From contig MSJI02000894.1 in NCBI GenBank assembly GCA_001931905.2, positions 1 to 64,000 of the forward strand: 64,000 nucleotides of DNA, written 5' to 3'. Made by a program: the position numbers and the translations under genes. The notes under the pieces were generated by a model. It had not been told where the DNA came from and ran no database searches. It worked only from the letters and a program-made list of their open reading frames with translations. How positions within the stretch are numbered: position 1 is the first letter of the stretch; every line of letters begins with the position of its first letter. Of this stretch, positions 31,931-35,083 are shown piece after piece. This DNA is from Cladosporium sp. IMV 00045. Its lineage: Eukaryota > Ascomycota > Dothideomycetes > Cladosporiales > Cladosporiaceae.

Positions 31931-34900
31931 TTAGTCAACCTCCTCAACGGTAGGGCCATCATCGCCGCCAGCACCGGGCGCGGCGCCACCGGGAGCAGCG
32001 CCGGGCATGCCGCCGGGGGCGCCACCCTCGCCGCCGTAGATCTTCATCATCTGTAAAACTCGTTAGCTTCAATTCCAATCGATTCAAGGGGTCATTATTC
32101 TGCTCACCACCGGGTTCGCCGTGGACTCGAGTTCCTTCTGCTGGGACTCCTGTGAGATTGTTAGCATCATGTTCAATGTTCAAGGCGATTGGGTTGAACT
32201 TACGTATTCGTCCTTGGCAGCAGTCTGGTTCTCGTCAATCCAGGAGACAGTCTTCTCAATGGCGGAAGAGAGGGTCTCCTTGTCCTCAGCGGAAAGCTTC
32301 TCCTCAACCTTGGGGTCGGAGATGGTGTTCTTGAGAGAGTAGGCGTAAGACTCAAGGCCGTTCTTGGCCTGGATGCGGCCAGCCTCAGCCTCGTCCTCCT
32401 CCTTGTACTTCTCGGCGTCAGCAAGCATGCGCTCGATCTCCTCCTTGGACAGGCGACCCTTGTCGTTGGTGATGACAATCTTGTTGGTCTTGCCGGTACC
32501 CTTCTCGAGGGCGGAGACGTTCATGATTCCGTTGGCGTCAAGGTCGAAAGTGACCTCGATCTGAGGAACACCACGGGGCGCAGGCGGGATGCCGGAGAGC
32601 TCGAACTTGCCCATGAGGTTGTTGTCCTTGGTGCGGGCACGCTCACCCTCGAAGACCTGGATGAGCACACCGGGCTGGTTGTCGGAGAAGGTAGAGAAGG
32701 TCTCAGACTTCTTGGTGGGGATAGTGGTGTTGCGCTTGATGAGGGCGGTCATGACACCACCAGCGGTCTCAATACCGAGGGACAGAGGCGCGACGTCGAG
32801 AAGGAGGATCTCGTTGGTGGACTTGCTGGAAGTGTCACCAGACAGAATGGCAGCCTGGACGGCGGCACCGTAGGCGACAGCCTCGTCGGGGTTGATGGAC
32901 TTGCAGGGCTCCTTGCCGTTGAAGAAGTCGGAAACGAGCTTCTGGATCTTGGGGATACGGGTAGAGCCACCGACAAGGACGATCTCGTGGACAGAGGACT
33001 TGTCGATCTTGGCGTCACGGAGAGTGCGCTCGACGGGCTCCATGGTGCCACGGAACAGGTCCTGGCAGAGCTCCTCGAAACGGGCACGGGTGATGGAGGT
33101 GTAGAAGTCAACACCCTCGAAGAGAGAGTCGATCTCAATGGAGGTCTGAGCGGAAGAAGAGAGGGTGCGCTTCGCACGCTCGCAAGCGGTCCTCAGGCGG
33201 CGGAGGGCACGAGCGTTGGTGGTGAGGTCCTGTAAAAGTGAGTTAGATATCAGAGCTGGGAGGTCCACATTTTGCGTAATGGCCGTCAGATTTTTTGTGC
33301 TGTCTGTAATTGGAGTAGTGTTTGAAGTGAAGGCCGCATGGGTCGCAAGGAAAGCCGTTTCCGCCGTAGCGAAGAGTGAGTTTGTGGCGCTTGGTGGTGC
33401 AGTGACGGCGAAGTTCTGAAGCGTCTCGACAATTGACGCCGCAAGGGTGGCACCGAAAGGTCTGATTGAACTTGTTGGCAGCGTAAATTTCTTGAAGTCT
33501 TGGATAAAACTTCCTCCAAGCGCGTTGTTGAGTGTTTTTGAAAGCCCGAGTTGGATTTGCGCGAAGATTGCGAGCATAGTGGAGCTGGTATTGTCGATTC
33601 TTTTCCGCAACGGCGGCAGCAATGTCGTCCAACTGCTGAGGTGTGAGGCCCATATCGCCGCGCACTCCCTCGAGGAGGGGATTGTGTGAGCAAAGGCCAC
33701 GCCATGAAAAGTTCTCTGCGGACCAAGGACAGGCGCCTTCAAAGCCGTAATCTTTGTCGGTTTTGAGCATTGCCCAGAGCGCGCAGGCGAAAACGGCTTC
33801 GAGAGCGATGATGAGAGCTCTGGTGCGGGAAGCTGTTGAGGCACGGGGCATGGGACAGTGGGCGAGGACGGCGTGGTGAGTGAGCTTGTACCCCCTGAGG
33901 TAAGCCTTCTTGACATACCGGGGGACACTCCTCCCGGTGAAGTGTTCGTAAAGGCGAGATCGAAGTCCGCGAGCGATATTGATGGCAGAACCGATGTAAA
34001 TGAGTGTGCGGCGCTTGGATTTGCGGAAAACGAGAATGTAAACGCCCCAGGAACGATTTGGGATGTCGGCCGAAAGTGAGTAGAGCCAGCTGCGAGGGGG
34101 AGGAGTCTCGGCAGTGAGGACAGAGTAGAGACCGGGAGCGAAAACCACGCCAGCAGAAACCAGCAGAGCAGAGCAGACATCTTCAGAATCGAAGAAGTGG
34201 CGAAAAACCGGGTTGATCCAGCTCTGAACTGAGCACAGACCGAACAGCAAGACCGAAATGATGGGAACAATGTCATTGAAGACAGACATTGCAAGGCTGA
34301 GCAAGTCGGAAGGTGTGAGCAGAATCTGGGTGCTGTTGCTGAGGAGGGCGGAGGTGTGGTGGTGTCGGTGAAGGAGTGAGGAAAACTTCATGACTGAAGA
34401 CAGCTGGCGGAGGTGGCATACCCCCTCAAGGCAGCAAAATCGCGGTTTTGGCAAGAGCGCGAGGGAGCTTTGGCGGTGGTGCTGCGACTTTGGTGGAAGT
34501 CGCGCTCAGAAGTGAGGCAGTTGCGGCGCCCCCGGTGGGGGCGCCGGGAAAGTTGGCACACCTGGGCAGCATCTGCCCAGGCGGCTCGGCTTCTTCAACC
34601 TCATGAGGGTGAGTATTCTCCTCATGAGGTCGAGAAAAGATATTGTTGAAGTGAGTTGTTGGTAGAAGTGGTAGCGGTGGTGAAGGTGTGGTGGAGTGAA
34701 GGAAGTTGCGAGTGCTCAAAGTGATGGAGCGCTCCGCAAAGCCAGCCCACCACCTATGACGTGGCACGCCGCAAATTGCGCCCGTGACACCTCATTTCCG
34801 GCTTGTGACCGCGACCCCCCGGATCAAAAACAGCTCCAAAGACAGACAAAAGACACAAAAGAAAAACAAATATTAGCAAAATAAAGGAAAAAAATTTACT

Positions 34901-35083
34901 CACGCGCTTATTCTTGCGTTTGAATTCGTTGCAGAAGTGGTTGACGAGACGGTTATCGAAGTCCTCGCCACCCAAGTGGGTGTCACCGGCAGTGGACTTG
35001 ACCTCGAAGATGCCCTCCTCGATGGTGAGGAGAGAAACATCGAAGGTACCACCACCAAGATCGAAGATGAGAACGTTCTTCTC
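31931..35083 (-). CDS. Cytosolic Hsp70 (SSA type), 3' part of the copy containing the nuclease-bearing intron
   Basis: Minus-strand exons are 35083-34904 (cut by the gap), 33229-32204, 32149-32108 and 32050-31931. The first exon piece reads from [19 protein letters not shown] to FKRKNKR. After the 1674-bp intron the protein continues [12 protein letters not shown], then [14 protein letters not shown], the substrate-binding domain and a Gly/Met/Ala-rich tail ending PTVEEVD. The EEVD end marks a cytosolic Hsp70 that binds TPR co-chaperones. The two 3' introns are 54 and 57 bp. All motifs present are intact, so the copy looks functional. The N-terminal ATPase part lies beyond the gap and is seen only in the other copy. 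Confidence 0.95.
33243..34391 (-). CDS. GIY-YIG nuclease with two C2H2 (U1-type) fingers, nested in Hsp70 intron
   Basis: A 382-residue intact frame; I use the first ATG (34391, [12 protein letters not shown]), though the frame is open upstream to 34454 without an ATG. An N-terminal hydrophobic region (about residues 35-58 and 73-93) precedes the GIY-YIG domain. That domain has GVYIL (116-120), YIGSA (132-136), arginines at 141 and 144, and a candidate catalytic Glu198 in ALEAV. The C-terminus has two fingers of identical C-x2-C-x12-H-x5-H spacing (C314, C317, H330, H336; C349, C352, H365, H371), a DNA- or RNA-binding type. GIY-YIG proteins of this kind act as site-specific nucleases in mobile introns. 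Here the gene is inside a spliceosomal intron of nuclear Hsp70, on the same strand. No stop or frameshift disrupts it, which suggests recent arrival or selection. Confidence 0.8.
34525..34629. repeat. Cluster of perfect inverted repeats inside the nuclease-bearing intron
   Basis: Three palindromic units occur within 105 bp. A 9-bp arm hairpin has a GGT loop (34525-34545, GGCGCCCCC/GGGGGCGCC). A second 9-bp arm hairpin has a CAT loop (34561-34581, CCTGGGCAG/CTGCCCAGG). Two copies of the palindrome CCTCATGAGG (34599-34608 and 34620-34629) complete the cluster. It lies between the intron's splice donor and the nuclease start. Confidence 0.8.

Follow-up and report, generated by a model that had tools for sequence, protein, structure and literature searches.

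A GIY-YIG nuclease gene in a spliceosomal-type intron of one Hsp70 allele of Cladosporium: a probable homing intron in a fungal nucleus

Introners, or introner-like elements, are mobile spliceosomal introns that multiply at many sites. The homing endonuclease I-TevI, in turn, resides in a self-splicing phage intron. In the nuclei of fungi and protists, group I introns of the rDNA carry homing genes that encode His-Cys nucleases (PMC9548176). As far as the literature searched goes, the first description of spliceosomal introns with homing nucleases dates from 2025 and concerns viruses alone. These are the shintrons, spliceosomal introns of mirusviruses for which homing was inferred, 132 of 334 of which encode a GIY-YIG nuclease and which lie mostly in conserved virion genes (PMC12768974). 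That paper calls the association between intron and nuclease previously unobserved and contains no word beginning with "fung" (PMC12768974). In the literature searched, mostly titles and abstracts with subscription papers largely outside it, we found no homing nuclease in a spliceosomal intron of a cellular gene; several of the papers listed treat organellar or self-splicing introns instead.

In this study, we analysed a stretch of 64,000 nucleotides from Cladosporium sp. IMV 00045 (assembly GCA_001931905.2, contig MSJI02000894.1, positions 1 to 64,000, forward strand), hereafter the window. We read a 1674-bp Hsp70 intron in this window as a mobile spliceosomal intron, that is, a homing-endonuclease gene that brings along both a 5' and a 3' splice signal, and give this reading a probability of roughly 0.8. 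With splice signals of its own, the element can sit harmlessly in a conserved gene. Like the shintrons, it is a GT-AG intron with no group I or group II signature and with a homing-type endonuclease gene inside, and as for the shintrons, homing is what we infer; unlike the shintrons, which occupy viral virion genes, the introns described here lie in fungal nuclear housekeeping genes, the nuclease has C2H2 fingers, a single genome contains both an occupied and an empty allele, and the Hsp70 alleles show an exon tract (PMC12768974). The Hsp70 gene that hosts it is cellular and belongs to a 49.9-Mb assembly in which a second, colinear haplotype is present; the element would function as a shintron does, though not as one of a mirusvirus. 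The intron of I-TevI is a self-splicing group I intron, whereas the Hsp70 element shows no ribozyme match and is an intron of spliceosomal type, and the two C2H2 fingers of its nuclease replace the DNA-binding parts of I-TevI. In contrast to the many sites of introners, we found a nuclease gene in two diverged copies in the genome, one per host gene. The element shares nuclear homing genes with the rDNA group I introns and differs from them in its spliceosomal-type intron, its GIY-YIG nuclease and its protein-coding host (PMC9548176).

The occupied intron and its nuclease gene

The occupied Hsp70 intron spans positions 33230-34903 on the minus strand (1674 bp, phase 0). It begins with GTGAGT (34903-34898), carries CTAAC followed by TTTACAG at its 3' end, the latter ending at 33230, and its last nucleotides on the minus strand read CTAACTCACTTTTACAG. 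Read from genomic sequence, these are canonical spliceosomal boundaries in a protein-coding gene. When the intron is spliced out in silico, Hsp70 is unbroken at the junction in an alignment to Hsp70 1A (7kw7, residues 192-592, E 1.7e-199). The exon downstream of the intron occupies 32204-33229 (minus), its far end being the next GTAAGT as read from the sequence, and the upstream exon consists of a last 18-nt segment (34904-34921, minus) and a remainder (34922-35083, minus) that is truncated by an assembly gap. An Rfam scan of the Hsp70 intron region with E values up to 1 returned no group I or group II intron family; the sole match for the region was a chance one in an Hsp70 exon (E 0.56). The clathrin intron described below gave no Rfam match within the same limit and hence has no group I or group II signature. 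On these scans we rejected a group I or group II identity. Since no ribozyme family was matched, the spliceosome must splice the Hsp70 intron.

A leader of 512 nt (34392-34903, minus) precedes the nuclease gene and is strongly folded into hairpins, with a folding z of -4.35 that is better than all 100 shuffles. We dropped strong leader folding as a family-wide feature, because the leader of the clathrin intron has a z of only 0.16. A hairpin cluster was also noted at 34524-34633 in the Hsp70 leader, where three arm pairs of 9-14 nt, 93-100% complementary, lie close together.

The nuclease is encoded by an open reading frame of 382 codons at 34391-33243 (minus), and homologues support it. Its TAA stop codon (33245-33243) is part of the branch-site-like CTAAC (33246-33242), and 13 nt of the intron remain 3' of the reading frame. 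Searches returned at least 70 related proteins, among which one has exactly the sequence of the clathrin copy, and this excludes a chance reading frame on sequence grounds. The GIY-YIG catalytic domain (residues 113-238; 33678-34055, minus) has a structural match to I-TevI. The protein has an I-TevI-like GIY-YIG fold, and its top fold match is this homing endonuclease rather than Slx1; an endonuclease of a homing superfamily is, in other words, encoded within the intron. The motifs GVY and YIG occupy residues 116-118 and 132-134, and a candidate glutamate is found at position 198. In the family alignment the putative catalytic residues are kept in nearly all sequences (Y118 in 70/70, Y132 in 69/70, R146 in 68/71 and E198 in 70/71); we take them to correspond to the catalytic Tyr, Tyr, Arg and Glu of I-TevI. 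Toward the C-terminus lie two C2H2 fingers with identical spacing and conserved residues, one with C314, C317, H330 and H336 (33384-33452, minus) and the other with C349, C352, H365 and H371 (33279-33347, minus).

On the other hand, the Pfam model PF01541 scores the Hsp70 nuclease at 16.8 bits, under the curated cut-off of 22.6. A GIY-YIG match at E 0.1 was obtained for two of 15 family members, and the clathrin nuclease was not detected by the Pfam GIY-YIG model. As the Pfam score is sub-threshold, the GIY-YIG assignment is carried by fold and motif. When the catalytic stretch was searched by sequence against solved structures, a single chance match was returned (E 1.5), and a family profile (A1) gave zinc-finger-type chains in the best 60 of 258 matches. 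Altogether, these results substantiate much of the original prediction, which had proposed a GIY-YIG nuclease gene nested in a spliceosomal-type intron of the nuclear Hsp70 gene: splice sites, fold and reading frame all support it, the 1674-bp intron lies at exactly the coordinates proposed, the 382-residue protein on the same strand is intact, and the GVY and YIG motifs, the candidate Glu and the two equally spaced fingers are present and conserved.

Relatives in clathrin heavy chain and in other genomes

Three protein queries, on which the count of two members in the genome rests, found one other relative in the assembly (C804:75473-76327), 35% identical to the Hsp70 nuclease. One query pointed to two further sub-threshold places (E 0.06) that span a stretch of only 57 residues. 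The second nuclease lies within a 1537-bp GT-AG intron of the clathrin heavy chain gene (L003 4670-3134, minus, phase 2), which has a leader of 303 nt, a tail of 139 nt and the signals GTGAGT...ACTAAC...TTACAG; once joined, its flanking exons match residues 261-504 of clathrin heavy chain in 3lvg (E 1.2e-84). Hence, both members found in this genome occupy same-strand introns of very conserved genes. Outside the reading frames, the two introns have little in common: a T-rich stretch of 28 nt near the 5' end (86%, E 0.002). The clathrin-type protein is identical to a database protein (P0020) present in three contigs of another source, which perhaps derive from reads of the same strain. No identical copy of the Hsp70-type nuclease was found among the protein-database matches, the best of which reach 44-47% identity.

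The clathrin exon directly upstream of the element has a GC3 of 0.51 (28/55 codons), compared with 0.72 for the upstream open frame (932/1297) and 0.84 for the initial 100 downstream codons. Against the downstream stretch combined with 600 upstream codons, this dip yields a Fisher P of 2e-4, a weak result in that the exon was chosen post hoc and that the downstream codons include some past the stop. Elsewhere in the assembly, a GIY-YIG match above the Pfam cut-off was observed at G000:C202:4466-4672 (L032), with one TAG inside; it may represent an intron-containing Slx1 or a nuclease of an organelle.

The three homologue searches returned at least 13, at least 12 (six of them new) and at least 51 related proteins; two of them scored 8000 candidates each, and the counts are therefore floors. 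Fungal names are carried by 9 of the 70 relatives, and 5 of these 9 point to a host gene. P0068, from Elasticomyces elasticus, is a predicted protein that fuses the nuclease with residues 238-474 of ATP synthase beta (E 3.6e-126), the outcome expected of a gene caller for a nuclease located in an ATP2 intron. In P0043, from Glarea lozoyensis, the terminal stretch matches DDX3X over 60 residues (E 1.7e-5), of which we take DED1 to be the fungal counterpart. P0036 (E. elasticus), P0049 (Neophaeococcomyces mojaviensis) and P0052 (Recurvomyces mirabilis) are nuclease-only sequences that are tied to cpa2 by their source name alone; the name presumably arises from a gene model located in cpa2. No host gene is indicated for P0019 (Aureobasidium melanogenum), P0057 (Neohortaea acidophila), P0064 (Lipomyces kononenkoae) and P0070, a third protein of E. 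elasticus.

In a tree of 71 rows, the Hsp70 nuclease falls in a clade of 16 rows (100/100), separate from the clathrin, atp2, DED1 and cpa2 sequences. The three proteins named cpa2 do not cluster with one another, which argues against a single, old cpa2 lineage; several invasions or misnaming could account for it. Scans with a second alignment (A2; 9 of 15 sequences) gave 27 pattern matches in viral contigs and 79 in prokaryote genomes, none of which was confirmed.

Alleles, the exon tract and rival explanations

The empty form of the intron, which measures 57 bp, lies at the same phase-0 site by allele comparison (35394-35450, minus), between a downstream exon truncated by the gap (35104-35393, minus) and an upstream exon that includes the start codon (35451-36197, minus). 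This short intron had been anticipated correctly; its assignment to a neighbouring copy of Hsp70 did not stand, because the empty form is an allele that lies beyond a gap of 20 N (35084-35103). The gap joins two overlapping contigs and places the two alleles head to tail. The right-hand contig restarts within Hsp70, where position 35104 equals 32940, and the left-hand contig ends at a point equal to 35630. Moreover, another contig of 27,986 bases (C221) is colinear with the window from 32548 down to 1567, with identities of 89-91% in the three longest blocks, 95% at the Hsp70 end and 82% in the next stretch. The gap, the dovetailed overlap and the colinear contig indicate that the two Hsp70 "copies" are alleles (haplotypes) and not neighbouring genes, and they exclude a tandem Hsp70 duplication. 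The genome is best read, from these assembly features, as a heterozygous diploid in which occupied and empty introns would be alleles of one Hsp70 gene. The two haplotypes are about 90% identical, which resembles the divergence described between the subgenomes of the hybrid black yeast Hortaea werneckii (88-92% identity; PMC5952469). The clathrin heavy chain gene was found in a single copy in the assembly, with no empty allele.

Comparison of the allelic Hsp70 exons revealed 13 differences in 470 nt, nine of them over 180 nt on the upstream side of the intron (at -109, -52, -16, -15, -13, -7, -3, -2 and -1) and four over 290 nt on its downstream side (at 81, 117, 174 and 267). The last 18 nt of the upstream exon contain seven of the 13 (hypergeometric P 5e-8, for a width picked after seeing the positions). 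All changes in this tract are silent except in the last codon, where Lys is replaced by Arg. I-TevI cuts upstream of its insertion site, and a tract on one side only, immediately next to the insertion, is the trace expected of co-conversion during homing.

In the mechanism that we propose, the nuclease would bind the Hsp70 site of the empty allele through its zinc fingers, among other parts, and its GIY-YIG domain would cut this site in the upstream exon. With the occupied allele as template, repair would then copy the whole intron and the adjoining 18 nt of the upstream exon, and the spliceosome would remove the intron, so that Hsp70 stays intact. The nuclease mRNA could come from a promoter in the leader or from unspliced pre-mRNA. 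The empty allele already has its 57-bp intron at the same site and hence is no example of an intronless target; the element may have entered an older intron or, in the other polarity, may have decayed to the short one.

Homing had also been part of the original prediction, and it is supported as the best explanation by the I-TevI-like fold, the one-sided exon tract, the clathrin member and the relatives tied to ATP2, DED1 and, by name, cpa2. Vertical inheritance of this nuclease in relatives, at unrelated sites outside introns, had been named as evidence that would count against it; within this genome, the other member found is also intronic. Idle homing genes usually decay, and here neither the reading frame nor the conserved catalytic and zinc residues show damage, which makes it unlikely that the element is a former homing one, of old entry and now immobile in a mostly clonal fungus that offers no empty alleles, even if its nuclease may be intact. 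In favour of such immobility, the empty allele persists unconverted beside the occupied one in a diploid genome, and the similar black yeast H. werneckii is described as largely clonal (PMC5952469). The intact frame and conserved active site would equally suit an ordinary host gene, for instance a repair nuclease that does cellular work and became nested in an intron by chance. We consider this very improbable: both members found in the genome sit in introns of very conserved genes, on the strand of the host gene; the nuclease is absent from one of the two Hsp70 alleles; two relatives are joined to ATP2 and DED1-like exons; and the best fold match is a homing endonuclease and not Slx1.

Penelope-like elements possess a GIY-YIG endonuclease, and the combination of this domain with zinc fingers brings such enzymes to mind. 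However, the nuclease is the only long reading frame of a recognised family in the intron, just two diverged copies were found in the genome, and reading frame and splice signals fit flush, all of which leaves a transposon fragment or derivative that landed in the intron a scarcely credible origin. An assembly artefact, with the nuclease block misjoined into Hsp70 beside the scaffold gap, is just as hard to credit. Between the intron and the 20-N gap upstream of it lie 180 nt, the scaffold places the two alleles head to tail, and database matches to the Hsp70-type nuclease stop short of identity, but the nuclease block holds no N and both of its junctions are exact splice sites, in frame. Moreover, the same architecture occurs independently in the clathrin gene on another contig (no N in 8 kb), and the three P0020 contigs, subject to their possible origin from the same strain, repeat that protein exactly.

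The mobile spliceosomal intron thus preferred suggests that selfish homing introns of the spliceosome type are found in cell nuclei too. A cellular family that occupies housekeeping genes, and of which one genome holds both an occupied and an empty allele, makes it testable whether spliceosomal introns can spread by homing and whether homing is one route of intron gain in cells. The nucleases would be new natural enzymes aimed at highly conserved eukaryotic sites. As a joint reading that we hold only tentatively and would sooner doubt than accept, fungal nuclei could host a widespread family of spliceosomal homing introns specialised on the most conserved genes, with Hsp70, clathrin, ATP2, DED1 and perhaps CPA2 as targets. 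By cutting upstream, each invasion would rewrite the end of a host exon, and decay of the nuclease gene would leave an ordinary short intron at the site; the empty allele, with its 57 bp of intron, may hold a remnant of this sort. If that were true, elements of this kind would be a source of new spliceosomal introns in cells.

Other features of the two haplotypes

Further places in the window bear on its haplotype structure. Its left end (1-3608) matches another contig (C631, 3608-1) at 96.6% identity and represents another unmerged haplotype end. The segments 42857-52243 and 52782-62121 are 89.7% identical and flank a second 20-N gap at 52762-52781; positions 42857-62121 are probably two haplotypes of a 9.4-kb stretch scaffolded in series and not a biological tandem duplication. 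About 3.3 kb of the window haplotype (28418-31779) have no match in the colinear contig C221. This stretch is possibly another insertion; it contains a reading frame of 478 aa with C2H2 fingers (28558-29994), which was found once in the assembly and matches no Pfam family above the cut-off. Finally, two adjoining copies of about 172 bp, 81% identical to each other, lie at 13995-14340, and C221 matches both.
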